Under the pieces are notes generated by a model. The model did not search any database and was not told the origin of the DNA. It saw only the letters and a program-made list of their open reading frames with translations. Source: Phaeobacter porticola (GTDB lineage Bacteria; Pseudomonadota; Alphaproteobacteria; Rhodobacterales; Rhodobacteraceae). From it: a DNA stretch of 64,000 bases. A program made the translations under genes and the position numbers. This document shows positions 12,816 to 52,516 of this stretch, piece by piece (the first letter of the stretch is position 1; every line of letters begins with the position of its first letter). The stretch covers positions 3,162,001 through 3,226,000 of the forward strand of contig NZ_CP016364.1 of NCBI RefSeq assembly GCF_001888185.1, written 5' to 3'.

Positions 12816-12854
12816 GAAAAAATGCCGCCCCGGGTTAGGGGGCGGCGTTTTGTT
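12816..12854. terminator. Bidirectional rho-independent terminator
   Basis: GC-rich inverted repeat GCCGCCCC (12824-12831) / GGGGCGGC (12839-12846), with an A-run on the left and TTTTGTTT on the right. It serves the convergent pobR and ctpA-like genes. Confidence 0.8.
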
Positions 12855-12876
12855 TCACAGTCTAGGACAGTAGGCG

Positions 12877-14220: not shown

Positions 14221-14223
14221 GAA

Positions 14224-16910: not shown

Positions 16911-17024
16911 GGTTTCAGGCTCCGGCTCTGACTGGTGTTACAGCCTTCTACAGTTTTGCCGAGGTGTGGGAAACCGTCGATCCGGTGCACAGGTCACGCA
17001 TCGGCATGCAAGATGGCATCGCGC

Positions 17025-18095: not shown

Positions 18096-18170
18096 GAGTT
18101 CTGTTTAACATGACCACATCGGTGTGCCGCCGATAATCGGGCGTGTATTTGAAACTGATGAATTCAGTGC

Positions 18171-18211
18171 ATCCCTTGACCGGCCCGCCAGTTATCGCCC
18201 GGTCAAGGGAT
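18171..18211. terminator. Perfect 13-bp inverted repeat, probable terminator of the ugp operon
   Basis: ATCCCTTGACCGG (18171-18183) and its exact complement (18199-18211) enclose a 15-base loop, just beyond the 3' end of the EEP phosphatase gene and upstream of ada. There is no T-run, so it may stabilise the mRNA 3' end or act with Rho instead of being a classical intrinsic terminator. Confidence 0.6.
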
Positions 18212-18228
18212 CATGGAGCGGCTAGGCC

Positions 18229-19230
18229 TCAGCCCACTGCCACACGACACCAGACGGCATCATGGTCAGACAGCGGTCGACCATTCTCATCAATAGACGA
18301 CACCAGAAGGTTCTCAGTCGAGCGCATGCCGCGGGTACAGAACCAATCCAGCTTCATCTCCCGATCCGGATGTGGCGTGATGAGGCTGGGGCGGGTGGTG
18401 ATACCGTCGGGCGTGGCGCTCCAGTCATACCCATGAGAACGTGCCAGATCGAACAGCGTTTCGCGCTGCCAATCATAATCGGGCGGCAGGTGGTTGCCGG
18501 TGTTCAGATCCCCACCAATCAGGACCGGCATATCCGGCGCAAAGGCATCAATCGCGTGCAGCAGACGGTCGAACTGCGCATGACGATGGGCTGCGTCGGC
18601 GTTGCTCTCCAGATGGGTGGACACCACGCAGATCGGTCCCGTCTCAGTTGGCAGAACCGCAGCAATGGCCATACGTCCGCCAAGCCGCGGTTGTTCTGGG
18701 TCGGCAGGCACCTCATCGGAGGAAAACCAATGACCGTGATCGTCGAGCCGGATCAGCGTCACCCGTTCGAATGGAACCGTCGACAGAATGGCGTTGCCAT
18801 GCCATCCAAACAAATTGAAATCATCTGTGCAAAAAGCTTGTTCGGTTGCCCCCCCGAGGTCCAATTCGTGAAATTCCACGCCAAAGACGTATGCCATATC
18901 CAGCGCCGTCGCCATCGCTTCGGTGGTGTGGCGCTGACTGGTGCGGGCCATGCCGTGATCAACCTCTGACAGCAGGACAACCTGCGGAGCGAGAGGTTGA
19001 ATATGGCGCGCCGTGTCCTCCGGGAACAGGCAGCGTTCGACATTCCAGGCCACAACGGAAACCGACGAGGCCAACGTCTCCAAACTGCCCTGCCCGCCCG
19101 ACTGAAGCGCCGACATCGCCGGAACCTCAGCCATTAAGGCGCGATGCGTCACCGCATTGCGCGGCGCATCCCTGATCCTCGCCTGCATGTCCGGGGTGAC
19201 CGAGGGCAGTTTGTCCAGAACCCGTGTCAT
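18229..19230 (-). CDS. Endonuclease/exonuclease/phosphatase (EEP) family phosphodiesterase in the ugp operon
   Basis: 333 residues. EEP metal-site motifs: the Asn in WNVER, the Glu in [18 protein letters not shown], the Asp-x-Asn in GGDLNTGNH, and a terminal LSDHDAVW (Asp-His pair). It overlaps ugpC by 4 bases, so it is the last gene of the transporter operon, where E. coli has the glycerophosphodiesterase ugpQ. It is reasonable to infer a role in hydrolysing a glycerophospho- or phospholipid-derived substrate. EEP members also include nucleases and sphingomyelinases. No signal peptide, so cytoplasmic. Confidence 0.8.
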
Positions 19231-25253: not shown

Positions 25254-26762
25254 TCATGATGGTTCCTGGCCGTTCCAAAACGCATCGAACTCTTCGTTCT
25301 GAATATCTGGCGGCAAATCTACTAAGATCGATCGATCGATGATGGAATACTTGTCGAGAGCTTGACGGAGGGGTTCATTTTCAATCCACTGGTTGGCCCA
25401 TAGGGACTGAGACACTCCATCTTCAAGAAGGCCGCACATTGGCTCCGCGCTGGAAAAATTGATGTAGTTGGGGGCGGCGATCCGCTGCAGCCAAATCTCC
25501 ATGTAGCCATTATTCGGGATGCGCTTCGTCCGCTGCACGACCAAGGAAAACAACCGCTCCCTTTCATCAGTTTCCAGATACTTCATGATCTTACTGATAG
25601 TCGTCGCTACGGCGGGAAAAACCGCTGGAGTCTTCGCTGCAATATCAAGAAGGATAGCGGAAAGCACTATTGGATTTTCAATTTTCCACGCGTTCTTGGG
25701 AAGTCGTCGTTCAAGTCGGTCTAAGAATTCTTTGATGAGGAACTTGGTAGCCCCGGAGCCGGGAGATCTGCAGCAAAACCGATGAATGATCAGCAGTTCT
25801 TTCTGAAGTGTGGTCTGACGACGAGTAAGTGAAAGAGCGTCGATCTTGTCCTGTTTCACGGCGCCCAGCACGACATTAGATGTTCGCTCAGTTTTCGAGG
25901 CCCCCAGCTTCATGCCAAACATATGGAGACATTCCGAAACCGCCTTCAAGCCACCCGCGCAATCCGCATCAGAATTGGCGAATATCCTAAAGTCATCCCT
26001 ATACCTCAAAATGACGATACCCTTTTTGTCTTTGAGCTTTTCGTCAATATAAGTGTCACAATAGCCAAGGATCAGTTCGGCGAGCAGGTGCGAGAGCAAC
26101 GATGCTTGAGGGATGCCATTGGTCTGACCCTCTCTTGAACTTCTAATGAGCTCGTCAATCTGGTTCCCAAGTTTCTTCTTCTCGAATCGCCACTTCTTGG
26201 CATCACTTCTACCGTAAACCGCCCATGCAATCGCGTGCGTGTAGATCGAGGGGTAACAGTTCGAGACATCAGTCAAACTTACATGGCTATACTGAAGCGA
26301 CAGCTCGAGTGAGCGCTGTTCAATAGATTTCCACCATTTCAGAATCTGCTGCTTCTTCGGGTTTTCACCTCGGTCTGGAACAACAACCGGCATGGAACAG
26401 CATTCCACGATTCCGTTCGAAAAACGGGAGAATCTATCTCGGATTATTTTCCAATTTTCTTCCTGGGTGATAAGATCAATGCACTTGGCGTAAATTACGG
26501 GGTGCATTAGCTCGAATGGACGCCAACCGAAATCCCCGTCCTTATTGAACATTAAGGTGTAGTTCAGCCCTTCGTGTTTCATGGGCTTCCAATCGCATAT
26601 GTCTTTGACCGACATCTCTTCCACCTTAGAAAACGCAAACTCCAGAAGTGGTTGGAGATTGAAGTATGGCGGCAACTCCATGTCGAAGTATGCATCGGTC
26701 CGACAAAAATACGATCTGGCCTCATCGGCGGCCATGTCGTTAATGAATATGTTCTCTTCCAT
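25254..26762 (-). CDS. Stand-alone reverse transcriptase, defence-associated (DRT/UG-like)
   Basis: 502 residues. Reverse-transcriptase core: motif A with Asp165 in TDVSNCYPSIYTH, NGIPQAS (about 215-221) as motif B, and YRDD at 254-257 as the catalytic box instead of YADD, followed by the primer-grip-side helix and K-L-G-A-S-K-T. The IYTH-x-I-x-W-A and ILRYRDDFRIF blocks resemble the unknown-group/Abi-type enzymes that provide phage defence, not group II intron or retron enzymes. No maturase, X or HNH domain is seen. The C-terminal 200 residues are helical and unassigned. Base composition is more AT-rich than the core. The subtype was not determined. Confidence 0.75.
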   Translation of the reverse strand: MEENIFINDMAADEARSYFCRTDAYFDMELPPYFNLQPLLEFAFSKVEEMSVKDICDWKPMKHEGLNYTLMFNKDGDFGWRPFELMHPVIYAKCIDLITQEENWKIIRDRFSRFSNGIVECCSMPVVVPDRGENPKKQQILKWWKSIEQRSLELSLQYSHVSLTDVSNCYPSIYTHAIAWAVYGRSDAKKWRFEKKKLGNQIDELIRSSREGQTNGIPQASLLSHLLAELILGYCDTYIDEKLKDKKGIVILRYRDDFRIFANSDADCAGGLKAVSECLHMFGMKLGASKTERTSNVVLGAVKQDKIDALSLTRRQTTLQKELLIIHRFCCRSPGSGATKFLIKEFLDRLERRLPKNAWKIENPIVLSAILLDIAAKTPAVFPAVATTISKIMKYLETDERERLFSLVVQRTKRIPNNGYMEIWLQRIAAPNYINFSSAEPMCGLLEDGVSQSLWANQWIENEPLRQALDKYSIIDRSILVDLPPDIQNEEFDAFWNGQEPS

Positions 26763-27136
26763 TTACTAAGCGTGTCCCGGCGGGCTGCGGTGGCTATCAA
26801 TCATGCCGCCTCAATTTCAAACCTCATGACTATCAACTAATGAGTGTATGTTTGTCTATTCTTGATGGAAACAGGACGATAGGCCTCATCGGCAACCAAA
26901 GACGGTGCGAGCAGATACAGGAAGCAGTAGTGCGCAGTGCGTTCCATCAGCAGCAGCGCCATGAATAGCCGGCATCGCGAGCGATCGACCTTCCGTTCAA
27001 CCAACCCCCGCGGCCCTTGCACCGCCATGGATGAACCGTAGAATATTACTACGCAGTCCCGGCGCAGTCCTGGACAACAAACCAACGAGGTGCAATCCCG
27101 GCCAAACCGCCATCTCATTGTTTTCATTTCAGAAAA
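26763..27136. other. 374-base leader between the reverse transcriptase and attL; candidate ncRNA locus
   Basis: No convincing gene. A 96-codon minus-strand frame (26837-27127) is Cys- and Arg-rich and looks spurious. Some DRT systems (DRT2, DRT9) need a structured non-coding RNA encoded just upstream of the reverse transcriptase, which would be this stretch read on the minus strand. By eye only short hairpins are seen, such as CTCAT...ATGAG at about 26823-26844. Confidence 0.3.
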
Positions 27137-27153
27137 ATGGTGCCCGGGGGCGG
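27137..27153. repeat. attL core (17-bp copy of tRNA-Phe 3' end)
   Basis: ATGGTGCCCGGGGGCGG, identical to 39593-39609. It contains the complement of the tRNA-Phe CCA end and the 3' acceptor/T-stem. The surrounding sequence is not a tRNA, so this is the displaced copy. Confidence 0.9.
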
Positions 27154-27187
27154 GATGCGGAAAGTTTCCTAAATCAATAACTTAGTG

Positions 27188-27261
27188 AAAAGTGGGACAC
27201 TCTAACTTCCCATAGTTTCATTATGTTTTTTGGGAAAACTGTCCCACCTTTATTGGTGGGA
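27188..27261. repeat. GTGGGAC repeats near attL, candidate integrase arm sites
   Basis: AAAAGTGGGACACT at 27188-27201 is the exact complement of 39510-39523 at the other end. GTCCCAC at 27241-27247 and GGTGGGA at 27255-27261 form a 6-bp hairpin stem (CCCACC/GGTGGG). Matching motifs occur only near the two element ends, as expected for integrase or excisionase arm-type binding sites. Confidence 0.5.
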
Positions 27262-27369
27262 TTCCGACTTAGCAGGCTCCGGCACATCCTTTCAAAACTG
27301 CAAAACGAAATCACCCCCCGGCGGCGACCGAGGGGCGATTGAATTGGCGCACCGAAAGGATGAATAACG

Positions 27370-29343
27370 ATGCCCAACAAAATTACTATCATGAGCGACA
27401 CGGTGCAAGAGGCCAACCATCTGGCTGCATTAGCGCTGGTCAAGGCGGGCTTTTTTGTTTTCCCCGCTGGCCCGAACAAGCGGCCACTGGTCAAAGATTG
27501 GCAGACTAAGGCCACCTCTGCAAAGGCTCAGATTGACCGTTGGTGGTCCAAATGGCCTGACGCAATGCCAGCGCTACCAACAGGCAAGCGCAATGGTCTG
27601 GCAGTGTTGGACGTGGACCTAAAAGACGGCAAGGACGGTGGCGCGGCCCTTCGCGACCTTGGCCACGATCCAGATACACTGTCCACGATCCGCGCTCAAA
27701 CGCCGTCCAATGGCCAGCACGTCTATTTCCGTTGGCCCGAGGGCATGGGCAACAGCGCGTCGGGTTTGCCCGATGGTGTGGACGTGCGGGGCGAAGGTGG
27801 TTTTGTGATCGCACCGGGCGCAATCAATGACAAAGGCGCATACGCGCTCACTAGCGGCTCACTGAGCGACGATCTGACCGACTGGCCCGAAGCCCTGTTG
27901 CCCCGCCCCAAGGTCGTAGACCACGGCGACGTGCAACCTACAGGCCTGCCATTTGAGACGATCCGCGACGCGCTCATGGCTTTGCCTAATGACGGTGACG
28001 AATTTTCGCAGCGTGACGACTGGCTGCGAATTGGCATGGCATTGCACGCCGAAACAGGTGGCGGTGACGAAGGCCGCGACGCTTGGCACGACTGGTCCGG
28101 CCAATGGCCCGGGTATGATGACACCGCAACAGACGCAGCTTGGGACTCGTTCAAGTCCGAAGGCGGCGTGACGGGCTTCACCATAATGGCCGAGGCGGAG
28201 CAACGTGGTTGGCACGACCTGTCTGCTTTCGATAATCTGGCCGCCGAAGACAAGCTGGCCGAGCTGGACGCGATCCTATTGGGCGAGCCGCAACCCAAGG
28301 CCAAGGGAAAGTCCAAACTAACGTTCCTGAGCCCGTCTGACTGTGAGCGTTTGCCAGCCCGGCGCTACGTTGTGAAGGGCCTACTTGCCGAAGGTGACGT
28401 GGCCGCCATTGTGGGCGCACCGGGGGCAGGCAAATCGCTACTGGCTCCATATCTCGGCTATGCGGTTGCGCGGGGCGCGGATGCCTTCGGACGGCGCACC
28501 CGGCAAGGTGGCGTCTTGTATGTCGCGGCTGAAGATTCCCACGGTATGCGTGCCCGCCTCAAGGCGCTGAAAGACCAATATGGCGACGCGGACAACTTCA
28601 CACTAGTGGAGGGCGCATCGGACTTATTGAACGTGACCAGCGGCCAGCTCAAGGCGCTTGGCACGGCGGTAAAAGAGAGGCGGCCTGCGCTGATTGTCGT
28701 TGATACCATTGCGGCGGGATTCAGCGGCCTAGAAGAGAACGACGCCAAGAGCATGGGTGTCGTGGTGGGGGCAGCCCGTAGCCTGACCCGTTGGGGTGCA
28801 GCCGTTGTCTTGGTCCATCACGATACCAAGGCGGGCGACGGCTTGCCCCGTGGCCACTCAATCCTAAACGGCGCACTTGATATGTCGCTACACCTCAAAC
28901 GTGACGGTACGGTGGTACGCGGCAAGCCAACCAAGAACCGCAACGGCAGCACCGACCAAGAGCTTGCCTTTAGCGTGGGTGTTGTTCGGCAGGGCGTGGA
29001 TGAAGACGGCGATCCGATCAGCGCGGCGATCTGCGATGAAGAGGACGTTTCCGAATTGCCTGCGAGCAGCAAGCGATTGCCTGCCAGTGCGAAGGCGGCA
29101 TTGGACATTTTGGGCGACCTCTTAGTGGGGCGTGAATCCATCATCAAATCCGATTGGCGGGCAGCTTGTCTTGATAGCGACGCAGTGTCGGCAGCGGAGA
29201 AACCTGACGACCGGGGCAAGGCATTCCGTAGAGCCTTGGAGGAACTGGCCCGCCGTAACCTATACCTTTCCAATGGGGACGAAATCCGTTTGGCCGTGTC
29301 CCCCGATAACCGGGCAGAGGGGTTCACCGATGATGACGTTTGA
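27370..29343 (+). CDS. Primase-polymerase/helicase replication protein of the satellite
   Basis: 657 residues. Prim-pol domain at about 15-185: VLDVDLKDG with metal-binding Asp81 and Asp83, NGQHVYF, and DGVDVRGEGGFVIAPG. A PriCT-2-like linker lies at about 198-285. A RecA/RepA-like ATPase follows, with Walker A GAPGAGKS (349-356), a Walker B-like LIVVDTIAAGF, and a VHHDTKAG sensor segment. Such fusions start replication at a cognate origin. The start at 27370 is supported by AAAGGA 9 bases upstream. It is the first gene of the element, and a dense repeat cluster follows its stop codon. Confidence 0.88.
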   Translation: MPNKITIMSDTVQEANHLAALALVKAGFFVFPAGPNKRPLVKDWQTKATSAKAQIDRWWSKWPDAMPALPTGKRNGLAVLDVDLKDGKDGGAALRDLGHDPDTLSTIRAQTPSNGQHVYFRWPEGMGNSASGLPDGVDVRGEGGFVIAPGAINDKGAYALTSGSLSDDLTDWPEALLPRPKVVDHGDVQPTGLPFETIRDALMALPNDGDEFSQRDDWLRIGMALHAETGGGDEGRDAWHDWSGQWPGYDDTATDAAWDSFKSEGGVTGFTIMAEAEQRGWHDLSAFDNLAAEDKLAELDAILLGEPQPKAKGKSKLTFLSPSDCERLPARRYVVKGLLAEGDVAAIVGAPGAGKSLLAPYLGYAVARGADAFGRRTRQGGVLYVAAEDSHGMRARLKALKDQYGDADNFTLVEGASDLLNVTSGQLKALGTAVKERRPALIVVDTIAAGFSGLEENDAKSMGVVVGAARSLTRWGAAVVLVHHDTKAGDGLPRGHSILNGALDMSLHLKRDGTVVRGKPTKNRNGSTDQELAFSVGVVRQGVDEDGDPISAAICDEEDVSELPASSKRLPASAKAALDILGDLLVGRESIIKSDWRAACLDSDAVSAAEKPDDRGKAFRRALEELARRNLYLSNGDEIRLAVSPDNRAEGFTDDDV

Positions 29344-29470
29344 GCATCGGACGGACATCGGACAAGGCCGGACATGTCCGGGACCCGTCCGCTGGCAAGA
29401 GGGGGAACACAATCGGACGGACACGGACACACCCCTTAAAGGGTGTCCGGTGTCCGATGTTCCCATGCCC
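29344..29470. repeat. CGGACA/TGTCCG iteron cluster, candidate replication origin
   Basis: About eight copies of CGGAC(A/G) or its complement occur in 127 bases after the primase gene. They include a CGGACATGTCCG palindrome and a hairpin CGGACA...TGTCCG around a TTAA centre (about 29422-29450). Satellite origins commonly consist of such iterons near the replication gene. The rest of the gap to 29661 (about 190 bases) has no gene and holds the ribosome site for the small terminase. Confidence 0.5.
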
Positions 29471-29661
29471 GGGCAATTAGAGAATACCAACAGTGCTGTG
29501 AGGGACACGGGTGTGGGGGATACCCGTGGGTCCTCCGTGGGCAATGGCGTCTGCGGGGGTCGCGGAGCCCCGGGCTATCAGCGCGTGAGGGTATTTTTGA
29601 ATCGAGAAAACAAACCCCCGTGTGGGTTGGCTACCCCCGGTAGTCTACTGAGGACAAGAGC

Positions 29662-30159
29662 ATGAAACTGGAAGACATCGACGCAATGCTACTGGCAGAT
29701 GAGCCGGACGCCCCCACGGGGGAAACCCTGACAGCGGCGCAGCTCGCCCCATGGCTCGGGCTGACCGTTGGCCGCGTTCACGCTCTTGGCCGCGACGGCG
29801 TTCTGCCTCGGACCCCTGACAAGCGCTATCCGCTGCAAGCCAGCGTGGCCGCCTATTGTGAGTTCTGCCGTGGGTTGGCCAAGGGCAAGGCGGCGGACAA
29901 TGAGCTGGCCGCCGAGAAAGTTCGGCTGGCCCGAGAACAAGCCGACAAGATCGCGCTGCAAAATGCGTCAGCCCGTGGTGAGCTTTTGGACTCCCGTACC
30001 GTGGCACAGGAATGGCGTGGCGTTGTCACCGATCTGCGGGCAGCCGTGTTGGCCGTGCCGTCACGGGTGGCCAGCACCTTGGGCTTTGATCGCAAACAGA
30101 CAGCCGTGCTCGACTCTGAAATCCGCGAAGCTATGGAGGCAATCTCAAATGACCGTTGA
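29662..30159 (+). CDS. Terminase small subunit (Nu1-like)
   Basis: 165 residues. N-terminal winged-helix DNA-binding region (TAAQLAPWLGLTVGRVHALGRDG, about 23-46) and a C-terminal helix pair. This is the layout of lambda Nu1-type packaging proteins (phage DNA packaging protein family). It recognises the packaging site. The stop overlaps the start of the large subunit. Confidence 0.85.
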   Translation: MKLEDIDAMLLADEPDAPTGETLTAAQLAPWLGLTVGRVHALGRDGVLPRTPDKRYPLQASVAAYCEFCRGLAKGKAADNELAAEKVRLAREQADKIALQNASARGELLDSRTVAQEWRGVVTDLRAAVLAVPSRVASTLGFDRKQTAVLDSEIREAMEAISNDR

Positions 30160-31915
30160 TCCCCGTTTTGGCCAGCTCCGCCGCGACGCGCTGGCAGCCT
30201 TTCGTCCACCTGCAAAACTGGCGCTGAGCGAGTGGATACAATCTGCCGTTTTCCTGCCGTCCAGCTTGGCAGCTCAACCCGGGCGGATGCGGCTCTGGCG
30301 GCCTCAAATCGAGATCGCAGACTCCATCGGTGACGATACCGTGGAGCGCGTCACGATCCTTAAATCGGCCCGTGTAGGCGCGACGCAGTTGATGGTCGGG
30401 GCCTTGGGTCACTTTGTGCAGAATGATCCTTCCCCGGTCCTGTGTGTCGTGCCCGTGGACGCAGATGCCCGTCACCTTGTCACCACCGTGATTGAACCGA
30501 CCTTTGGAGAAAGTCCCGAGCTGCGCGCCGCGCTCACCACCGACAAGGGCGGACGCGATACGATGCTGCATCGCCAATTTGCCGGGGGCAGCCTGTCGGT
30601 GATCGCCGCACGTTCCCCCCGGGCACTGCGTGCCCGCACCGCCCGCATTCTGTTTGCTGATGAGCTGGACGGCTGGGAAACGACCCAAGAAGGCGACCCG
30701 CTGGAATTAGCGATCATGCGGACACACACCTTTGGCAATCGCAAGATCGTACTGGCGTCCACTCCGATTGATGCGGAGACCAGCCGGATTCTCCGGTCCT
30801 ATGAGCAATCGGATATGCGCGTCTTTGAGGTCCCATGCCCGGGCTGCCATGATCCGCACGAAATCCTCTGGAAAGACATTCGCTGGCCAGCCGACAAACC
30901 CGATGAGGCCTATTGGTGCTGCCCGTCCTGTGGCAGCGTGGTAGAGGATCGCCAAAAGCCCATGATGGTGGCAGAGGGTCGCTGGCGTGCCACACGCCCC
31001 GAAATGGAGGGGCACCGGGGCTATAAGCTGACAAGCCTGACCAGCACCTTGCCCAACGCAGCATGGCCCCGACTAGCAGCCGAGTTCTTGCACGCTAAGC
31101 GCAGCCCGGCCACCCTCAAGCCGTTTCTCAATACCGTGCTGGGCGAGCCTTGGCGGGGTGAAGGCGACGACCTAGACGCCGCCAACCTGCAAGCGCTGGG
31201 GCGGCCATTCTAGCTAGACGCCATTCCAGCCGATGTGCTTGTCCTGACCGCTGGAGCCGATGTGCAGCAAGATCGCGTGGAGATCACGTTCACAGGCTGG
31301 ACCAAAGACGACGACATGCGCGTGCTGGCCCATGAGGTCATCTGGGGCAGTCCAACTGAAAATGAGACGTGGGCCGAGGTAGACGACGCCTTAAAGCGGC
31401 AATTCATGCATCCGCTGGGCGGCGTGTTGATGGTGGACGCCGCGATCATCGACTCCGGGAACTGGGCGGATCAGGTCTATGCGTTCTGCCGTCCACGGGC
31501 AGCACGTCGCATATTGCCGGGGAAAGGCATGGCCGGGTTCGGTCGCGCATCTCTGGCCTTCTCTGCCAGCCGGAAAGTCCGCCTTGGCCTAATCGGTGTG
31601 GACGGAATCAAGCAACTACTGCACCAGCGCCTTTCCCACGATGAAACGATCCTCTTTTCGGATCATCTCGGCGGGGATTACTTCGACCAAATCCGCGCCG
31701 AGCGGCTTGTCACTAAGTATTCGCGCGGGCACCCGGTGAAACGCTGGGAAATCACCAGCGGGCGGCGGAATGAAGCCTTAGACACGCTCACTTATAGCTA
31801 CGCTGCCCGTGGGTTAGTTGGGACGGATTTGGTCCGCCGCGAAGCCGACCTCGCGCGAGTGACAGGTTTCTTAAAACCCGCTATGGTCGCAAGATCAAAG
31901 TGGCTGGAGAATTAA
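30149..31915 (+). pseudogene. Terminase large subunit (GpA family), interrupted by an in-frame amber codon
   Basis: The ATG at 30149 overlaps the small-subunit gene. The frame gives 354 residues with the packaging ATPase (ILKSARVGATQ, FADELDGWETT, and the zinc-finger-like CPGC...CPSC block), then TAG at 31211-31213. The same frame continues as LDAIPADVLVLTAGADVQQDR and the rest of the nuclease domain to 31915. No frameshift is needed: one base substitution from GAG, CAG, AAG or similar explains it. Re-initiation at GTG 31235 could make a separate nuclease fragment. Unless amber codons are suppressed, packaging by this copy should fail. Confidence 0.88.
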
Positions 31916-31947
31916 CTCGCATTCAATTTAAACGAAGAGGTTAGTAA

Positions 31948-33387
31948 GTGGCAAAAATTGTAAACCCTATTCTATTTTCAAATTACTTTGGAATTGATCC
32001 TAACGAAGTCGATAAAGCTGGCTTGATTGATCCTTTTTTGAATGTGGATTTAGAACTGTTCATAGACCCAATTTTGTTAGAGCAATGTAGTAATAGTGAA
32101 ATTTCGAAATCAGGGTTGAACGATTTTCGCAAGCATTTTTCGAACATAATTCGTCTGCTTGCAATTTCGAAATCTGAAAACGACGCGGCGTGGAATGCCG
32201 CCAAAAAGCTTCTAGATTTGGATGAGCCGTCGGAAAATGGTTTAGGTTATGGAGGTGCATCTCGCTCAGGTAGCTCTAGACCAGACGAAATTCAGACGAT
32301 GATTCTAAAAACTTCCAAAGAGGTAGTTGATCTTGGGTCAAACGACCCTGAAATGATTTCGCTCATGGGCTTTTTTGAAGAAGGTGTTGGGCCTGATACA
32401 ATTAGTGATTTCACAACCCGAGTGATCTACGGGAGTTTGTCGAAGATCACTTCGGACTTTTGCAAATCTCAGGGCATCAAAACTAAGGTTATTGATGTGG
32501 AAAATCCGGGGATCAGTTTACCGATATTCGTCGACACAAAAGGAAATGAAAAACCATTTTTGTTGGTTCCAAAGGATATAGTGCGAAATCTCCCGATTGC
32601 CAACGATTGGTCTGACGTTCGCGAAGCGGCTATGAAAAACGCTCAAATCCGCGACAAAGTAAATCAAATGCTTGCTGGCATTGCGCAACCGACGGTTACT
32701 GATACCAAGCACGCGCTGCGCGGAGCAGCACTTTCATCTGCTCAAGCATTCGAGCATTTTCTTACTTCGGTTAAGGACAATGCAAGTAGTTATGATCCTG
32801 CGGAGGATGCTCTGGGTTATTTCAGTTTTATAAAGATGCTGTCATCTGACATGACAGGTTACGTGGACACATCGAAAGTCGATCTAAGCATTGGTCCAGA
32901 AGCAATTAAGCAGGTTGTTCTCGATGCGATTGCTCTATTTGCAAGACATGTTGAAGTGGGGGACTTGTGGCGCGAACTCTGGGCGGACGGAAAACCAAAG
33001 AAAGAACGCGCGGCACAACTCATCTTCCAAGCAATTGCGGATGCATATTGCAAAGCCAACGACATTGATATGTCTCCAGAAGCGAACATGGGAGGTGGGC
33101 CAGTGGATTTTAAGTTCTCTACTGGCTACGAAGCGCGGGTTCTCGTTGAAATAAAAAGAGACACGGGTACGGTAAAGCATGGCTACGAAACACAGCTAGA
33201 GCACTACAAGAAGGCTTCGGAAACGTTTTTTGGGATATTCGTTGTTATTGACTATGGCAAGATGGGCAACAAGCTTGACACTATAAATCAGATTCGAAAC
33301 CGTCGGGTGGCCGCTGGTGAGCGTGCCTCAGATATTATTGTCATCGACGCTACTCCGAAAGAATCGGCGAGCAAACGTAAGCACTGA
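31948..33387 (+). CDS. Cargo protein with C-terminal PD-(D/E)xK nuclease-like domain
   Basis: 479 residues from a GTG at 31948, with a GAGG site 8 bases before. The gene is clearly richer in A and T than the structural genes on both sides, a sign of separate acquisition. The C-terminus carries a PD-(D/E)xK-like site: PVD387, then VLVE401IK403, then a Q416-x3-Y420 helix, the usual D-ExK-Q layout. The N-terminal 350 residues are helical with no recognised motif. Its position between terminase and portal, a place where satellites carry antiviral cargo, suggests a defence nuclease against competing phages. Family name unknown. Confidence 0.65.
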   Translation: MAKIVNPILFSNYFGIDPNEVDKAGLIDPFLNVDLELFIDPILLEQCSNSEISKSGLNDFRKHFSNIIRLLAISKSENDAAWNAAKKLLDLDEPSENGLGYGGASRSGSSRPDEIQTMILKTSKEVVDLGSNDPEMISLMGFFEEGVGPDTISDFTTRVIYGSLSKITSDFCKSQGIKTKVIDVENPGISLPIFVDTKGNEKPFLLVPKDIVRNLPIANDWSDVREAAMKNAQIRDKVNQMLAGIAQPTVTDTKHALRGAALSSAQAFEHFLTSVKDNASSYDPAEDALGYFSFIKMLSSDMTGYVDTSKVDLSIGPEAIKQVVLDAIALFARHVEVGDLWRELWADGKPKKERAAQLIFQAIADAYCKANDIDMSPEANMGGGPVDFKFSTGYEARVLVEIKRDTGTVKHGYETQLEHYKKASETFFGIFVVIDYGKMGNKLDTINQIRNRRVAAGERASDIIVIDATPKESASKRKH

Positions 33388-33707
33388 AATACGTAAGAAA
33401 ACGCCCCGGGATTGTTGGGACCAACCAAAACCTCGGGGCGCTTCACAAAGGCGTTCATCGTTCTGACCCGATGAGGCCTATTCCGGTTGTCGTGGGCTTG
33501 TGGAACCGGAAAGCACTCACAAACCCACGACGGTTCACCAACAGGGCTGACACTCCCCGCGAATCAATCAATATCCGATTTATCAAATCGGAGTCAACAT
33601 ATTGAATATATGTGACTTTTGGTTGTCGGTGACTTTTAGTTGACCTTGTGAATTATTCCCGAATCGGTAGATTTCTCGCCAACAGAACCTGACAAGGGAG
33701 TGGCGAG
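33388..33707. ncRNA. Hairpin-rich non-coding stretch after the cargo gene; candidate structured RNA or terminator array
   Basis: 320 bases without a gene. CGCCCCG/CGGGGCG (about 33402-33437) flanks a 29-base loop. A 14-bp stem lies at 33489-33502 with 33518-33531 (one mismatch, GTCGTGGG...CCCACGAC). A perfect 8-bp stem TCCGATTT/AAATCGGA lies at 33574-33592. A direct repeat TGACTTTTGGTTG / TGACTTTTAGTTG lies at about 33611-33640. This could be the cargo terminator plus the promoter of the next gene, or a functional RNA. Confidence 0.4.
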
Positions 33708-34298
33708 ATGTGCGATTCAGAAAGTACATATGGCGGGGCGCAGATGGTCCCCGAGATTGATGGTGAAACCAAAGGACTGACCACGGGCCAAATAGCCCGA
33801 GCGCTGGCAGAACCCGGTTTCCCAGTGAGAAACGCAACCGCGATCTTTCGTGCGCACGCCCAAAAGGGGCTCGTGCATCCATACGGCAAAGAGCGCTCAG
33901 GCACGAAAAGCTACCTCTACCGCGCGGACCAAGCTGTGATCGCAGCGGTATTGCACCGTGTTGCCGAGGCAGCCATTGGCGACAACCGATTGCGCCACAA
34001 AATCTCTAACACCCTGCACATGTGGGACGCCAGCGAGTTGACCCCAGATGCACCGCGCAGTCCCGCAATGTGGGCACTGGTGGAATATTTGAATGGCAAA
34101 CGCGGTTTTGCTTTTGAGATCAGGACAACACGCAATGAGCGCGGCACGGTTGATTACGATTGCCGCTTGCGTCATGCGAAATCAGCCACGGGCACCAACT
34201 TCCGGTTGGCTGACAATTGGCACGTTCGCTCGGCCTTTGTCCTGCATATGGACGATGTGCTGGCACACCTGACCCGCGCACGCGAATTGGCAAACTAA
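33708..34298 (+). CDS. Winged-helix (MerR-like HTH) protein of the satellite
   Basis: 196 residues. Residues about 24-75 (LTTGQIARALAEPGFPVRNATAIFRAHAQ, then a basic wing with YGKERSG) look like a MerR/AlpA-type winged helix. The remainder is unassigned. TAATG overlap with the portal gene ties it to the head operon, so it could be a regulator of the late genes or a morphogenesis protein. The start at 33708 has a GGGAGTGGCGAG site just before it. Confidence 0.55.
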   Translation: MCDSESTYGGAQMVPEIDGETKGLTTGQIARALAEPGFPVRNATAIFRAHAQKGLVHPYGKERSGTKSYLYRADQAVIAAVLHRVAEAAIGDNRLRHKISNTLHMWDASELTPDAPRSPAMWALVEYLNGKRGFAFEIRTTRNERGTVDYDCRLRHAKSATGTNFRLADNWHVRSAFVLHMDDVLAHLTRARELAN

Positions 34299-35671
34299 TG
34301 TCTATTCTCGCCCGCCTCTTTAATCGCACCGACGCCAAGCCCCGGGTCCGCCAGCTTGATGCAGCAACAGGTGGCCGCCGTGGTGGTGGTCTCGGCTCAT
34401 TCGGGCCTATCAATCCCGAGATTGGCGCGGGTGCGGCGGTTACACGGTCGCGGGCGCGGTATCTGGCCCACAATAACCCATTTTTGAATAATGGCGTGTC
34501 TAACTGGGCCGCCGCTCTTGTCGGCACTGGAATCCGCCCAACGGCGCGATCTGACGACGCCGGGACGCGGGCGCTTGCGGGTGGTCAGTTTGAGACATGG
34601 GCGGATGACGCAGACCATGCGGGCCGCACCGACTTTTGGGGAATCCAGAGAGACATAGCCCGGCACCTTGTCATTGATGGCGAGGCGCTGGTCATTATGC
34701 ACGACACCGACGCAGGCTTGCGCTTGCAAGTGGTCCCACCTGAGCAACTGGACGAGTCCAAGTCAGGCGTATTGAGCGATGGCCGCGAGATCGTGTCTGG
34801 TGTGGAGTTTGACGTCCAAGGTCGCCGCGTGGCTTATTGGATTTTGCCACAAAAACCCTCTTCGATTTATGCAGAATATGCGCCCCCGGTTCGGGTAGAC
34901 GCGGCGGACGTATTGCACGTCATGCAGCCCTTAGCCGTTGGACAGGTGCGCGGGCTTTCATGGCTTGCGCCTGCCGTGCTGTCTGCATCCGAACTGGACC
35001 AGCTTACAGACGCGCTCTTGGTATCGGCCAAAGTGGCCGCGATGCACGCCGGATTCGTTAAGGATCAAACCTCTATGGGTGGCGCGGGTTCTGCCTTTCC
35101 CGAAGCTGACGGCCTGTCAGATATTAGTTTGGAGCCCGGGGTGGTTCGCGTGCTGCCCGGCGGCACTGACATCTCATTTAACAACCCCGAACAACTAAAA
35201 GACGCGCCTGCCTTTGTGCGGATGAACCTGCAAGCCTTGGCCGCTGCTCTTGGGTTGCCAGAGCATTTGTTGAGCGGCGATCTGACCAATGCCAATTTCA
35301 GTTCCCTCCGCGCTGGCCTGATCCCGTTCCGTGCCCGCGTGGAGCAATCCCAATATGGCACGTTGACCCCCCAATTCTTGCGCCCGATCTGGCGGCGTTG
35401 GCTGGCCCTTGAGGTCTTGTCCGGTCGCGTTGAGCTGAGCCCCGAGATTGGGGCCGAGTGGATCATGCCACGACCTTTGCAGGGCCTTGACCCAATCAAG
35501 GAATACGGCGCGATCAAAGAAGCCTTGGCGCTTGGTCTTATGAGCCGCACGCAAGCAATCAATGAGTTCGGCTGGAACGCAGACGATATGGACCGCGCTA
35601 TTGCGGCGGATCGTGCCCGGGAAGCTGACTTTGGCCTCAACTTCTCAGCTGGGGAGTCGTCCAATGAGTGA
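34298..35671 (+). CDS. Portal protein (lambda GpB-type)
   Basis: 457 residues from ATG 34298, which overlaps the TAA of the previous gene. Phage portal (lambda family) signatures: the R-x-L-x-x-N-N-P-F-L-N-N-G-V segment near the start, DGEALVIMHD, and the ALAAALGLPEHLLSGDLTNANFSSLRAG block (about 315-345). It forms the dodecameric DNA gateway at the capsid vertex. It is followed by an 8-base overlap with a 64-residue protein. Confidence 0.92.
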   Translation: MSILARLFNRTDAKPRVRQLDAATGGRRGGGLGSFGPINPEIGAGAAVTRSRARYLAHNNPFLNNGVSNWAAALVGTGIRPTARSDDAGTRALAGGQFETWADDADHAGRTDFWGIQRDIARHLVIDGEALVIMHDTDAGLRLQVVPPEQLDESKSGVLSDGREIVSGVEFDVQGRRVAYWILPQKPSSIYAEYAPPVRVDAADVLHVMQPLAVGQVRGLSWLAPAVLSASELDQLTDALLVSAKVAAMHAGFVKDQTSMGGAGSAFPEADGLSDISLEPGVVRVLPGGTDISFNNPEQLKDAPAFVRMNLQALAAALGLPEHLLSGDLTNANFSSLRAGLIPFRARVEQSQYGTLTPQFLRPIWRRWLALEVLSGRVELSPEIGAEWIMPRPLQGLDPIKEYGAIKEALALGLMSRTQAINEFGWNADDMDRAIAADRAREADFGLNFSAGESSNE

Positions 35672-35858
35672 GCAAGGCAAATTTCACGACAAGTACGTGC
35701 AGCAGTTAATCAAGGGTGCCTCTGACAAGATCACCGGCCCGCGTGTGACCGCTAATATCCGCAACGCCAACTGCGTCCGCTGCCCGCAATCTGGCGAGCT
35801 GGCAGGGCGCAACTCCGATCAATTCAGACGCATGGAGGTGCGCTTTGCCCCTAGATGA
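35664..35858 (+). CDS. Small phage-head-operon protein, function unknown
   Basis: 64 residues (MSEQGKFHDKYVQQLIKG). The start at 35664 sits in the 3' end of the portal gene, and the 3' end overlaps the protease-capsid gene by 14 bases. It is basic, with two cysteines (NCVRCPQ). The tight overlaps support a real gene; possibly a head-completion or scaffold-related factor. Confidence 0.5.
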   Translation: MSEQGKFHDKYVQQLIKGASDKITGPRVTANIRNANCVRCPQSGELAGRNSDQFRRMEVRFAPR

Positions 35859-37635
35859 GACGCTGATCCGCGCAGCCACAACGCGGCCCAACTCATACGA
35901 TCCCGAAACGCGCAGGGTATCCGCCGTGATCGCAACTGCAAACCCGGTCCAGCGCCGGGATGCCCGTGGAACGTATCTCGAAATTCTTACCGCTGACACG
36001 CTTGATATGTCGGCAGTTCAAGGCTTGCCCGTCCTTGATAGTCACCGCACGGCGTCCGTGCGGGACCAAATTGGGCGGGTCAGGTCCATCACTCTGGAAG
36101 GCGATCAAGTGATCGCAGTTTTGGAGCTTACCTCTGCCGAAGATGCCGCACCAGTGGTGCAGCGGATCGCAGACGGGACCGTTAGCGGGGTGTCCATCGG
36201 ATACCACGTTGCGGGGTGGACCGAAAAACAAACCGCGCAAGGCCGGGTCAGAACCCCGACTGCATGGCGGATTACCGAAACGACCCTGACAAGCAACCCG
36301 GCGGACCCCGCCGCACGTCTAAGGCAACAAGAGGAGTCCCCTATGCCTGATCCTGTAATTGATCCCCCCGTAACCCCAAGTGCTGAAGAGCTGGAAACGC
36401 AGCGCCGTTCCGACATTCGCGGGCTTGTACGCAGTGCGCAGCTCGGCGATGATCTGGCCGACCAGCTCATTGACCAGAATACGGACATGAACGCAGCCAA
36501 GGCCGCGATCTTTGACGCAATGCAGACGCGGCAACGCTCTGCCCCAGTGATCCGTGTCCATGGTGCAAATGACGACCCGGCCACGATCACACAACGGCAA
36601 GCCGACGCTCTGCACATCCGCATGGCGGGTGGCGAACCTGCCCCCGCGGTCCGGCAGTACATGGGCGAAAGCCTCTTGGACATGGCCCGTGGCAGCCTTG
36701 CCCGCTCTGGTGTGTCCACCCGAGGCATGAGCCCCGATGAGACGTTCACCCGGGCCGCTGAGCATACCACCAGCGACTTCCCCAATCTGGTATCCAACGC
36801 CATGAACAAGACGGCGTTGCAGTCCTATCAGGCAGCCGCGTCACCGCTCAAAACGCTTGGCCGCCAACGGTCTTTGTCCAACTTCAAAACGGCGTCTTCG
36901 ATCCGTCTGGGCGAAATGGGCCGCTTGGAAGAGCTGAGCGAATCTGGCGAAATCACGGCCACCAGTCGCGCCGAAAACGGTGAGTCCATGAGCCTGACCA
37001 CCTACGCCCGGGGCCTTACGGTTTCCCGTCAGCTCTTGATTGATGATGACCTTGGGATACTTGGCGACATGACGGCTGCCTTTGGTGAAGCCGCCGCACA
37101 AACCGAAGCGGATATTCTGGTGGACCTCATCACCAGCAACCCAAACCTGAGCGATGGCACGGCGGTCTTTGACGCAAGCCGGGGCAACCTGTCCGGCACG
37201 GCAACCGCCATTGGTGACGCTGGCGATCAGGCGGCGGTGGAAGAGGCTCGCAAGGCTATGCGTGGCTACAAAGGGTTGGACGGCAAGACGCTTATCAATG
37301 TTGCGCCCAAATACCTTTTGGTGGGTCCTGAGACAGAGTCGGCAGCCGAAAAGCTCTTGGCTCAAATCTACCCGGCCACCGTTGGCAACGTGAACGCCTT
37401 CGCATCCAAGCTCAGCTTGCTTGTGGAGCCACGTATCACCGACTCACGTTGGATGGTCTTTGCCGATCCGGCCCGATTGGCCGCAATCCAGTATGGTTAT
37501 CTCAGCTCGGCGCAGGGTGTTCAAATCCAGCGCAGTGAATCGTGGTCCACCCTTGGCATGAAGTTCCGGGCGTTCTTGGACTTCGGCGCAGGCTGGCTGG
37601 AAAGCCGTGCCGCTTATCTGAACGAGGGCAGCTAA
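35845..37635 (+). CDS. Prohead protease fused to major capsid protein
   Basis: 596 residues from TTG 35845. Residues 1-165 match the HK97-type prohead protease fold (GLPVLDSHR with the catalytic His, then VSGVSIGYHV with the catalytic Ser). A linker with Pro-rich start and helices (about 168-300) looks like a scaffold or delta domain. Residues about 310-596 are an HK97-fold major capsid protein (FKTASSIRLGEMGRLEELSESGEI, KYLLVGPETES, WMVFADPARL). Single-chain protease-scaffold-capsid fusions exist in phages and satellites; the protease must cut itself free. No frameshift or stop lies between the parts. Confidence 0.88.
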   Translation: MPLDETLIRAATTRPNSYDPETRRVSAVIATANPVQRRDARGTYLEILTADTLDMSAVQGLPVLDSHRTASVRDQIGRVRSITLEGDQVIAVLELTSAEDAAPVVQRIADGTVSGVSIGYHVAGWTEKQTAQGRVRTPTAWRITETTLTSNPADPAARLRQQEESPMPDPVIDPPVTPSAEELETQRRSDIRGLVRSAQLGDDLADQLIDQNTDMNAAKAAIFDAMQTRQRSAPVIRVHGANDDPATITQRQADALHIRMAGGEPAPAVRQYMGESLLDMARGSLARSGVSTRGMSPDETFTRAAEHTTSDFPNLVSNAMNKTALQSYQAAASPLKTLGRQRSLSNFKTASSIRLGEMGRLEELSESGEITATSRAENGESMSLTTYARGLTVSRQLLIDDDLGILGDMTAAFGEAAAQTEADILVDLITSNPNLSDGTAVFDASRGNLSGTATAIGDAGDQAAVEEARKAMRGYKGLDGKTLINVAPKYLLVGPETESAAEKLLAQIYPATVGNVNAFASKLSLLVEPRITDSRWMVFADPARLAAIQYGYLSSAQGVQIQRSESWSTLGMKFRAFLDFGAGWLESRAAYLNEGS

Positions 37636-37859
37636 TGGCCCTGACGGTCGCAAAACTGACCCAAGCACGGGACGCCTTGATGGAGTCCCGTGCAAACGGT
37701 GCCCGGTCTTTCACAGACCAGAATGGCGAGCGGGTGGAGTTCAAATCGGACTCCGAAATGGCCAAAGCTCTTGCCGCCCTTGATCGTGAAATCGCGGCGC
37801 TGTCCGGACGAGCCGCGCCCACAACCCTGCACTTCGCAACCTCGAAAGGAACAACCTAA
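37635..37859 (+). CDS. gpW-like head-tail connector
   Basis: 74 residues. The pattern LTQARDALMESRANGARSF then ERVEFKS and a C-terminal helix with LDREIAAL follows the short alpha-beta-alpha layout of lambda gpW, which sits under the portal and lets tails attach. TAATG-type coupling to both neighbours. This is the only tail-facing gene in the element, as expected if helper-phage tails are used. Confidence 0.7.
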   Translation: MALTVAKLTQARDALMESRANGARSFTDQNGERVEFKSDSEMAKALAALDREIAALSGRAAPTTLHFATSKGTT

Positions 37860-38185
37860 TGCGCAATTATATCCAACCCGGCGATTCCATCACCGTGACC
37901 GCAACAGCCGCTGCCAGCTCTGGCGACGGCGTGCTTATGGGCTCGCTCTTTGGCATTGCCTCTGGCGACGCCGCAATCGGCGACAATCTGGTGCTCACAA
38001 CTACGGGTGTCTTTGAAATGCCAAAGCCCTCTACTGATGACCTTGCCGTGGGCGATGACCTCTACTGGGATGATGCCAACGGGCTGGTCACGAATGACGA
38101 CGACACCGGAAGCAACCCGTTTATCGGACTCGCAGTATCGGTGGCGAGTAATCCGTCCGGCACCGTCAACGTAAAGCTGGGCTAA
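37859..38185 (+). CDS. Capsid decoration protein (DUF2190-like)
   Basis: 108 residues, beta-rich: MRNYIQPGDSITVTA, the G-D-G-V-L-M-G-S-L-F-G-I-A block, TTGVFEMPK, and a Gly/Asp-rich finish. This matches the DUF2190 (capsid cement/decoration) family pattern. It probably stabilises the mature capsid. Confidence 0.75.
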   Translation: MRNYIQPGDSITVTATAAASSGDGVLMGSLFGIASGDAAIGDNLVLTTTGVFEMPKPSTDDLAVGDDLYWDDANGLVTNDDDTGSNPFIGLAVSVASNPSGTVNVKLG

Positions 38186-38186
38186 G

Positions 38187-38438
38187 ATGATGTCCGCCGT
38201 CTCCATACATACGCGCACTGCACTACCGCTGCCCACACGGCGGGGGCTGTCGCGCGTGGAGGCGGCGGAATACATCGGAGTCGGAGCGTCTAAATTTGAC
38301 GCTATGGTGACGGATGGACGGATGCCAAAGCCCAAGAAAATAGACGGGCGGCGGGTCTGGGATGTGCGTTTGCTGGACCAATTTTTTGACACCTTGCCGG
38401 GTGGGGACGATTCGGACCACAATCCTTGGGATAATTAG
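38187..38438 (+). CDS. AlpA/excisionase-like DNA-binding protein
   Basis: 83 residues. LSRVEAAEYIGVGASKFDAMVTDGRMPKPKKIDGRRVWDV is a MerR/AlpA-type winged helix. It lies 0 bases upstream of the integrase gene, where satellites encode the excisionase or directionality factor. It could also act as an activator of the element. Confidence 0.75.
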   Translation: MMSAVSIHTRTALPLPTRRGLSRVEAAEYIGVGASKFDAMVTDGRMPKPKKIDGRRVWDVRLLDQFFDTLPGGDDSDHNPWDN

Positions 38439-39557
38439 ATGTCCGAGGATTCTATGCAATTCCGTTTGAAATATGTTGTGGAGGATGTGGACAGGCACGG
38501 AAACGTGCGTCTCTATTTCCGCCGCAATGGCCGGAAGGTCCGCTTGCGCGGCCCTGCCGGATCACCCGACTTCCTTACCGACTATCGCCGCGCGGCGAAC
38601 CCGCCCAAAGAGGCTGAGGCCCAAACTGCAAAGGTGGGCCGTGTTGTGCCTCGCAGTATTCGCTGGCTTTGCGTCCAATACTACAAAAGCGCAATGTTCA
38701 CCGAACTGGACCCCCGGACTCAGAAGGTCCGCCGCTCGATTATGGAACGCTTTTGCCAGAATAAGAACGATGGCGACAAGCCTTTCGCGCTTTTGCTGCC
38801 CCGTCATATCCGCGTTCGCCGCGATGAAATGGCCGACCGCCCCGAGGCGGCCAACAGCATGGTGAAAGCCTTGCGCCAGCTTTACCGCTTCGCACTCCGC
38901 TATGACCTTCACGATGACAACCCGGCGGATAAGGTGGAATACCTGAAGGGCAATCCCGACGGCTTTCATTCGTGGTCTCTAGCCGAAATTGAGAAATTTG
39001 AGGATGCCCATGCGATTGGGACACCAGCCCGCCTTGCGCTCGCTCTGGCACTCTACACGGGGCAACGTCGCGCCGATTTGGTGATGCTAGGCAAGCAACA
39101 CGTCCGCGACGGCTGGCTGATCTTCACTCAGCACAAGGGCCGGAACAGTAAGCCAGTGCGGATGGAAATCCCGGTCATTCCTGCATTGCAGCGAGTTATC
39201 GACGCCACGCCCACAGGCGATCTGACGTTCCTTGTGACTGCCTTTAATCGCCCGTTCACGTCCAACGGCTTTGGCAATCGCTTCCGCAAGTGGTGCGGCG
39301 AAGCCGGGCTTAAGAATTGTTCCGTTCACGGATTGCGCAAGGCCGCCGCTGCACGACTGGCCGAACTTGGCTGCACGGAACAGGAGATCATGGCAATCAC
39401 TGGTCACACCACCAGCAAGGAGGTCACCAGATACACCCGAGCAGCGAGTCAAAAAGCACGAGCGGAAAGCGCTCTTCGCCGTTTCTCAGGAGAACAAAAC
39501 TCGGACAAAAGTGTCCCACTTTTAGCGGGGATAATATCTGGTGGGACAAAAACGTAA
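38439..39557 (+). CDS. int: Tyrosine recombinase (integrase)
   Basis: 372 residues. Catalytic set visible: Arg210 in TGQRRADL, Lys233 in the beta-turn, His297 and Arg300 in HGLRKA, His323 in ITGHTT and nucleophile Tyr332 in VTRYTRA. N-terminal SAM-like core-binding region at about 65-160. It ends 36 bases from attR; the 3' coding end contains one of the GTCCCAC arm-like sites. Integrates the element into the 3' end of tRNA-Phe. Confidence 0.93.
   Translation: MSEDSMQFRLKYVVEDVDRHGNVRLYFRRNGRKVRLRGPAGSPDFLTDYRRAANPPKEAEAQTAKVGRVVPRSIRWLCVQYYKSAMFTELDPRTQKVRRSIMERFCQNKNDGDKPFALLLPRHIRVRRDEMADRPEAANSMVKALRQLYRFALRYDLHDDNPADKVEYLKGNPDGFHSWSLAEIEKFEDAHAIGTPARLALALALYTGQRRADLVMLGKQHVRDGWLIFTQHKGRNSKPVRMEIPVIPALQRVIDATPTGDLTFLVTAFNRPFTSNGFGNRFRKWCGEAGLKNCSVHGLRKAAAARLAELGCTEQEIMAITGHTTSKEVTRYTRAASQKARAESALRRFSGEQNSDKSVPLLAGIISGGTKT
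39510..39548. repeat. GTCCCAC/GTGGGAC pair near attR, candidate integrase arm sites
   Basis: TGTCCCAC (39512-39519) and GTGGGACA (39541-39548) form an inverted pair overlapping the integrase 3' end. The sequence 39510-39523 is the exact complement of 27188-27201 at the left end. Confidence 0.5.
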
Positions 39558-39592
39558 CCTAACTATCTGATAAGAAATACCAAAAAGAAAGG

Positions 39593-39609
39593 ATGGTGCC
39601 CGGGGGCGG
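39593..39609. repeat. attR core within tRNA-Phe 3' end
   Basis: Identical to 27137-27153. It covers the CCA end and part of the acceptor and T arms, so integration keeps an intact tRNA. Confidence 0.9.
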
Positions 39610-39668
39610 AATCGAACCACCGACACGAGGATTTTCAATCCACTGCTCTACCCCTGAGCTACCCGGGC
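39594..39668 (-). tRNA. tRNA-Phe (anticodon GAA)
   Basis: 75 nucleotides with encoded CCA. Acceptor stem GCCCGGG/CCCGGGC with discriminator A, D arm GCTC...GAGC, anticodon loop TTGAAAA, T arm with GGTTCGATTCC. It is the integration target of the satellite, and its 3' end forms attR. Confidence 0.97.
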
Positions 39669-48891: not shown

Positions 48892-48966
<75 letters not shown>

Positions 48967-49186
48967 GAAAATTCCCTCATAGATCAGCGCCTTAGGCCGA
49001 TACCTGACAAACGGTATATTGCCCGGCATACAGTTATTTGGGCGCGTTTTGCGCGCGCATGTCGTGCTGCAGGGTTAAACCGGATCAGCCCAAAAGCCCG
49101 CCGCCGAATAGCGCTTCTCGCCGCCTCTGATTCGCGGCCTCTCAGCCCTCGACCTTCTGCCGTCGGATCGGCGCTGTGAATCGGCA
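48967..49186. other. Gap between tRNA-Thr and the IS21-type element
   Basis: 220 bases with no gene seen on either strand. Contains GCGCGTTTTGCGCGC (49033-49047) and other GC-rich short dyads. It may include the attachment region of a former integrative element. Confidence 0.35.
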
Positions 49187-49280
49187 TGCGAAATTGACCC
49201 ACTTAGGTGGGTTATGAGCGAGTAAAATTGACCCACCTGTTTCGTTAACATCCGCGCTTCAAGTGCGGAGGAAAGAGCAG

Positions 49281-51517: not shown

Positions 51518-51638
51518 CCGTCCCGAAAGCAAAGCCCCCAGACGGACTCGCTATATGAGGGCGGCCCGCCTGGGGGCTTTGCGCCACATGGGGTGGGTCA
51601 ATTTTAAATGCTGAAACCGGGTCAACTTTGAACGCTCA

Positions 51639-52499: not shown

Positions 52500-52516
52500 G
52501 CGATAGTTTGGACAGG

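Follow-up and report, generated by a model that had tools for sequence, protein, structure and literature searches.

The locus considered here raises the question of whether a short run of phage head genes lodged in a tRNA gene is the wreck of a prophage or a mobile element in its own right. The window, that is, the whole 64,000-nucleotide stretch of the Phaeobacter porticola genome under analysis (G000:C1:3162001-3226000; host genome 4.2 Mb, 6 contigs), contains an island at 27137-39612 that lies inside tRNA-Phe, with its genes on the + strand and 12,456 bp between the two copies of its attachment site (att). With a probability of roughly 0.8, sequence comparison indicates that this island is a copy of a satellite family whose members would assemble small heads of their own, load them with DNA, and depend on a helper phage for tails and lysis. 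A helper is invoked because tail and lysis genes are missing. The comparisons below support a tail-less, capsid-forming satellite and not a deleted prophage.

The island and its family

The recognised genes of the island, all on the + strand (a first-pass annotation of this DNA had put them on one strand), are the following:

27370..29343, + strand, replication protein, 657 amino acids (Prim-Pol E 3e-32, PriCT-2 3e-17, AAA_25 8e-35)
29662..30159, + strand, small terminase TerS, 165 amino acids (phrog_57)
30155..31915, + strand, large terminase TerL, GpA type, with an in-frame TAG at 31211-31213 that separates the ATPase part from the nuclease part
31948..33387, + strand, cargo gene, 479 amino acids (phrog_30194 family; weak PDC-M36A match; low-G+C stretch)
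33708..34298, + strand, MerR-like DNA-binding protein, 196 amino acids (predicted fold)
34217..35671, + strand, portal, lambda family (E 8e-81; start codon uncertain, the reading frame overlapping the preceding gene)
35845..37635, + strand, prohead protease-major capsid fusion, 596 amino acids (Peptidase_S78 and Phage_capsid_4)
37632..37859, + strand, gpW-like head-tail adaptor Ad1, 75 amino acids (phrog_2545; sits after the capsid gene)
37859..38185, + strand, cement protein (Phage_cement_2, PF09956, E 2e-27)
38187..38438, + strand, small helix-turn-helix (HTH) gene, excisionase-like (Tn916-Xis in Pfam, below cut-off; regulator and excisionase PHROGs)
38439..39557, + strand, tyrosine integrase, 372 amino acids (Phage_integrase E 4e-19)

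The island therefore carries its own capsid, protease, portal, connector, TerS and TerL, although TerL is interrupted here. The first-pass annotation had recognised this head-and-packaging set, the integrase at the tRNA and the primase-polymerase and helicase at the far end, and each was recovered by profile matches, Phage_cement_2 presumably being the DUF2190 of that annotation; the TAG in TerL had been missed, and the 479- and 196-residue genes between TerL and portal had been omitted. Its finding of no tail, lysis or CI-type repressor genes also stands, as no such family was matched among the named genes in Pfam or PHROGs (small other open reading frames, ORFs, unscanned). The small gene at 38187-38438 had been called AlpA-like, a label that has to be dropped: Pfam gave no AlpA match at E 0.01, and the gene resembles an excisionase or regulator instead. 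The AlpA regulator is a mark of phage-inducible chromosomal islands (PICIs). Promoter-like sites are at chance level (5 against 5.4 expected), and terminator-like sites number 22 against 13.9 expected.

The window capsid protein retrieved 31 viral-contig loci and 38 named genome loci, the latter by their titles mostly Rhodobacterales (with 2 Aureimonas, 2 Corticibacterium and 1 Acuticoccus). Within the same bacterial family the capsid was matched in 69 of 295 genomes, and in a class-level draw at 1e-30 in 13 of 385, own genome included in both. The tailed prophages examined align to the window capsid only from about residue 135 onward; matches that reach its first 13 residues occur in 31 of 294 other genomes of the family (counted from match rows).

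The same tail-less gene set, which the first-pass annotation had proposed to look for in several genomes, is the shared plan of 40 att-bounded elements. These are the window island and 39 others with a clear direct repeat, chosen by eye out of 105 loci (L032-L136), the rest being duplicates, loci truncated at a contig end, or loci in which no repeat stood out clearly. The elements measure 9,851-13,673 bp (median 12,128), and a tRNA (Phe, Ser, Met, Cys, Glu, Thr, Pro, Lys, Trp, Tyr or Arg) lies at one att in 35 of them. Every one of the 40 has genes similar to TerS, TerL, portal and capsid of the window; 38 have a similar integrase, 36 a similar cement gene, 31 a similar prim-pol and 18 a similar small HTH gene. 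Mapping of the window proteins gives one common head-and-packaging order in the complete loci. Two accessory ORFs, which probably belong to L110 and L090, also match Phage_integrase, and some elements without prim-pol probably use HTH_36 or replication-initiator genes present among the accessory ORFs. Tail genes appear to be absent throughout. Among accessory ORFs with a length of 100 amino acids and up, 143 in all, 20 Pfam families were matched, none of them tail or lysis (smaller ORFs unscanned), with a single Phage_attach match, in L094; of the 58 PHROG families matched, none among the best 25 is a tail family.

Median ratios of nonsynonymous to synonymous substitution rates (dN/dS) are 0.14 for capsid, 0.12 for portal and 0.09 for TerL (163, 130 and 113 non-independent pairs). 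The closest relative of the window island differs gene by gene, which suggests recombination within the family: L032 for the capsid (82%), L057 for the portal (77%), and L035 (89%, partial) and L034 (80%) for TerL.

Some further observations concern single loci. L111 (Salipiger) has a second prim-pol match, from 13822, immediately beyond its integrase and right att, which suggests a tandem second island. L067 / L106 is a decaying family member, with a shortened TerL match and stops in its TerS, portal and integrase matches. L191 (G359) is a related element of permuted order, with TerL after the cement gene and tRNA-Arg at its left repeat. L194 (G065) represents a second branch at tRNA-Met, about 18 kb long, with methylase genes in the gap between TerL and portal and an HNH_2 protein beside them; among six of its large ORFs scanned in PHROGs no tail match was found.

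That the island encodes a head, a motor, a first connector and its own replication gene might suggest a minimal virus that needs no helper, its DNA being delivered by the head itself or by the head together with unrecognised proteins. This is very improbable, given that the named genes take up about 11.4 of the 12.5 kb, that no lysis family was matched, and that the remaining genes vary between elements.

Comparison with tailed phages and prophages

The listed phages that match best do so at about 25-35% identity and share the order TerL - gpW - portal - capsid - cement - tail. RcMeacham (a Rhodobacter phage), Psul1 (a Paracoccus phage) and similar phages encode a homologous protease-capsid fusion, portal, TerL, gpW and cement protein. 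However, RcMeacham and Psul1 have their own tail and lysis modules within 38-41 kb and carry gpW before the portal gene, whereas the island has neither module matched, spans 12.5 kb and carries gpW after the capsid gene. A gpW-type gene lies between TerL and portal in 11/11 phage records (6 named, 5 by size) and in 5/5 prophages with that stretch in view. With a profile built from the elements' own gpW, it follows the capsid gene in 40/40 elements, 33 by a strict rule; in the other 7, the stop-to-stop ORF of gpW overlaps the capsid gene at its beginning and extends past it.

Phylogeny separates the two groups as well. In the capsid tree one branch parts 45 satellites from 15 tailed rows, with a support of 100 in the Shimodaira-Hasegawa-like approximate likelihood ratio test (SH-aLRT), and in the portal tree 33 satellites and 15 tailed rows fall on opposite sides of a branch with SH-aLRT 98. 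Of five loci from other families, four (L189, L190, L191 and L192) group with the satellites and one (L193) with the tailed forms. The capsid precursors are 581-621 amino acids long in 24 satellites (median 590) and 655-699 in 14 tailed rows (median 678), starts being approximate, which leaves those of the satellites about 90 residues shorter. The 20 clearest tailed-only columns lie near residues 164-175, between the protease and shell domains, and the other difference is spread out.

These results bear on the reading of the island as a decayed prophage whose tail and lysis genes were deleted. In favour of it, the island shares homologous head genes with tailed phages, has an interrupted TerL, and has one relative with tail-like genes (L192) in the satellite half of the capsid tree. 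Nevertheless, this reading was rejected as highly improbable: one plan recurs in 40 att-bounded elements of narrow size range, dN/dS is low, gpW has moved, and the capsid and portal branches are separate from those of tailed kin. Neither the tail nor the lysis module of a tailed prophage was found among the named genes and accessory ORFs scanned, and the possibility raised in the first-pass annotation, that the closest relatives would all be tailed prophages at the same junctions, was examined and not borne out.

A number of points weigh against the satellite interpretation. L192 (G618), outside the 40 elements and on the satellite side of the capsid tree, has tape-measure and minor-tail genes together with an integrase within about 18 kb, and may be an intermediate. 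L193, conversely, has gpW after the capsid gene and no tail seen, and falls on the tailed side. Because of these two placements the clade is mostly, not purely, tail-less; in the sampled loci, tail loss and gpW order are imperfectly tied to one clade, and gpW order was rejected as a strict mark of satellites. The loci were, furthermore, gathered by similarity to the window capsid, the 40 elements were selected by eye, the PHROG view covers the best 25 of 58 families, and the lysis scan covers ORFs of at least 100 amino acids. Shared exact k-mers before TerS are no commoner than in a portal coding control, and the profile of the cos-like site described below found nothing in L189-L194 and L060. 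Finally, with its TerL interrupted, this copy may not package itself.

Integration, packaging and cargo

The ends of the island and the sites near them are as follows:

27137..27156, + strand, attL, a 19/20 match to the tRNA-Phe 3' end, first 17 identical
39593..39612, + strand, attR, within the tRNA-Phe gene (39594-39668, - strand) and equal to its 3' end
27189..27250, no strand assigned, arm-type integrase-site candidates, AAAGTGGGACA at 27189 and an inverted copy with one mismatch at 27240
39512..39522, - strand, arm-type site candidate AAAGTGGGACA, beside attR and within the 3' end of the integrase gene
29527..29582, + strand, conserved TerS-proximal site, candidate cos (packaging start), placed by profile

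The 17-bp att repeats reported earlier were recovered, and the 16-base core has no third copy in the 64-kb window (2 occurrences only). An Rfam scan returned tRNA only. In G676, a genome of the same genus (locus L184), the homologue of the left flank 27053-27156 (82% over 104 bp) abuts tRNA-Phe directly; the right flank there is 79% identical and a single att core is present. The two signs of site-specific integration looked for, att at a tRNA and a vacant junction in a relative, were thus both found. A further copy of the tRNA end lies about 9.4 kb to the left in G676, so a different element sits there and the junction is vacant only with respect to the window island.

In the window, the AAAGTGGGACA sites lie 53 bp in from the left end of the island and roughly 80 bp short of attR. 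With at most one mismatch the motif occurs near both ends in 11/40 elements (L099 has two possible left att copies, the inner one suiting its arm sites better), and 25 of the 30 sites in the 40 elements are near an element end; shuffles yield 4.3 sites in total. Judged by position, this is the placement expected of integrase arm sites around attP, and the sites are candidates for that role.

Other observations concern the neighbourhood. L184 at 8900-18343 (G676) and L186 from 1939 (G675) hold more copies of the tRNA-Phe end, 9-13 kb off and with integrase-like ORFs; because of these copies the site seems to be contested within the genus. Directly left of attL, an AbiP2-type defence reverse transcriptase is encoded at 25254-26762 (- strand; PADLOC E 2e-166). 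The strip adjoining attL has its homologue in G676 at the end of a different tRNA-Phe element, and the AbiP2-type gene may for this reason belong to an older neighbouring element. Right of tRNA-Thr, window positions 48892-63856 form a stretch of lower G+C in which IS21-like genes (49770-51517), a large CHAT-like protein and HipA/HipB-like and ArdC-like proteins were recognised by eye from the translations.

The candidate cos site belongs to a block of about 57 bp (consensus nncGGGTCCtTCccggnggtgnccngncGcGGGgggCGcgGAGCcCc) that lies before or at the TerS start in 35/40 elements. With a leave-one-out profile, the top match falls at the block in 34/35, and E is at most 0.01 per element in 32/35 (L112 included); the top match in L112 is a second block copy 41 bp on, and in L127 the block is not significant. 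The record ends of four linear tailed phages gave no match to this profile. Run over the window and 33 loci, the profile matched L091:10299-10352 (E 4.8e-4), just before the TerS of a prophage; among the other tailed loci scanned the best match was a weak one (L142, E 0.05). The prophage is Psul1-like and lies in the same genome (C1, about 250-272 kb; L091 from 10299 to about 11941 in L092), with terminase, head, tail and lysin matches, and its TerS has no similarity to the satellite TerS. On these sequence matches it is a candidate helper. A guessed family, phrog_5, had no match in the island's own genome.

The gap between TerL and portal, 1.1-2.7 kb long, holds genes that differ between elements. 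Against PADLOC, 3 of the 11 gap proteins scanned have a match: the window cargo protein to PDC-M36A, a candidate defence model (2.5e-11, weak), an L132 protein to an Orf5/HEC-06/SspE-type model (3e-160) and an L032 protein to a TIR effector model (2e-9). The idea of a hotspot rich in known defence genes was withdrawn, as most PADLOC families came from one protein, L132:5833-7524 (34 families). For the 479-residue cargo protein, the homologue scan found L036 only, and a model from two sequences has a predicted local distance difference test score (pLDDT) of 33. The 196-residue protein was modelled at pLDDT 88, with the MerR-type regulator CvkR (7xn2) as best solved match (probability 1.00, a modest E of 8e-3); by its predicted fold it may switch the head genes.

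As a satellite, the island would work in the following manner. It would be excised as a circle, and its own replication would follow a helper or stress signal. The terminase would then cut at the cos-like site, and about 12 kb would be packaged into a small head. The head-and-packaging set ends at the first connector, gpW; the attachment protein, the tail and lysis would come from the helper, and the cargo gene would protect the host.

How far this copy could follow that course depends on TerL. An internal stop occurs in 0/69 loci whose TerL match covers more than 85% in one piece (some contigs among them fetched twice), and the TAG of the window would probably keep this copy from packaging its own DNA, barring readthrough of the stop or the action of a terminase in trans. 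L034 is 82% identical over the part that precedes the TAG and 79% over the part that follows, where no second break occurs; the interruption is for this reason either recent or an assembly error. That the island belongs to the satellite family but is a dead copy, its packaging abolished and at most a resident cargo locus left, comes close to an even bet while falling slightly short of it. The stop found here and in none of those 69 loci argues for it, as does the weak resemblance of the cargo gene to a defence candidate; on the other side stand the sequence beyond the stop, nearly as similar to L034 as that before it, and the intact integrase, att, cos-like site and head genes.

Relation to known satellites

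In the published excerpts consulted, capsid-forming PICIs (cf-PICIs) encode capsid, protease, portal, connectors, terminases and an HNH endonuclease, and take their tail from a helper (PMC10690885); they average 14 kb (PMC10803314), 900 published capsids of theirs were placed in a tree as PF05065 (PMC13230959), and three capsid clades are described (PMC11389934). PMC10690885 calls them widely distributed, and Alphaproteobacteria are not among the main hosts named in PMC10803314. The island resembles them in having its own head and packaging genes and no tail. It differs, as far as these excerpts describe the class, in its capsid family, in the combination of a GpA-type TerL with a lambda-family portal, in lacking HNH, and in having an Xis-like gene, not AlpA. 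Its capsid gave no PF05065 match at E 0.001 and matched Phage_capsid_4, Mu-like_gpT and Peptidase_S78 instead; no HNH was found in the window's genes or among the 20 Pfam families of the 143 accessory ORFs.

The first-pass annotation had read the island as cf-PICI-like. The tail-less, capsid-forming satellite part of that reading is retained, and membership of the class is not. True membership is improbable: the logic is the same, with own head and packaging genes, no tail, an integrase, a small HTH gene and a primase, but the capsid belongs to another family by the marks given in the excerpts of PMC10690885 and PMC13230959, and neither an HNH gene nor an AlpA match was found. The island is not filed as a cf-PICI for these reasons. 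From Pfam family and gene content, it looks like a member of a separate family of capsid-forming satellites that is cf-PICI-like in its working. No description of this family was found in the open-access literature searched (subscription papers and bioRxiv being outside its scope), including the accessible parts of PMC8224337, PMC10386132, PMC8682789 and PMC13386836. New in this analysis are the cos-like site before TerS, the integrase arm-like sites, the variable TerL-portal slot and the shorter capsid precursors.

A tentative and rather doubtful extension is a separate alphaproteobacterial origin of capsid-forming satellites from the head of a GpA/lambda-type phage. In this scenario the head module would have been truncated past gpW, the gpW gene shifted to a place behind the capsid gene, and the capsid precursor shortened between protease and shell, giving heads sized for about 12 kb. 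Tailed phages in that host would have a cos-like site in common with the satellite, and the terminase of either partner could then work on the DNA of the other; even a copy whose TerL is interrupted could still travel in this way.

If the satellite interpretation is right, about 1 in 10 sampled genomes of this bacterial family (31/294) carries a satellite class that resembles a short prophage, and tail-borrowing satellites have a further origin, from a different head lineage. For the question of how a head module turns satellite, the family supplies genomes, att sites, a candidate cos and a capsid-precursor change linked to size, and the TerL-portal slot is a source of uncharacterised cargo genes.

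Comparable systems exist outside the PICIs. The Streptomyces phage satellites MulchRoom and MiniFlayer, like the island, have their own head and packaging genes, and their tail is taken to be the helper's in the excerpt of PMC10690885. Unlike the island, they are described there with actinobacterial hosts, virulent helpers, direct terminal repeats and no obvious replicase, the integration module being lost in one of them. VEIMEs and tycheposons, marine elements proposed as satellites (PMC10803314; PMC10690885, both in excerpt), are likened to the island by description only.

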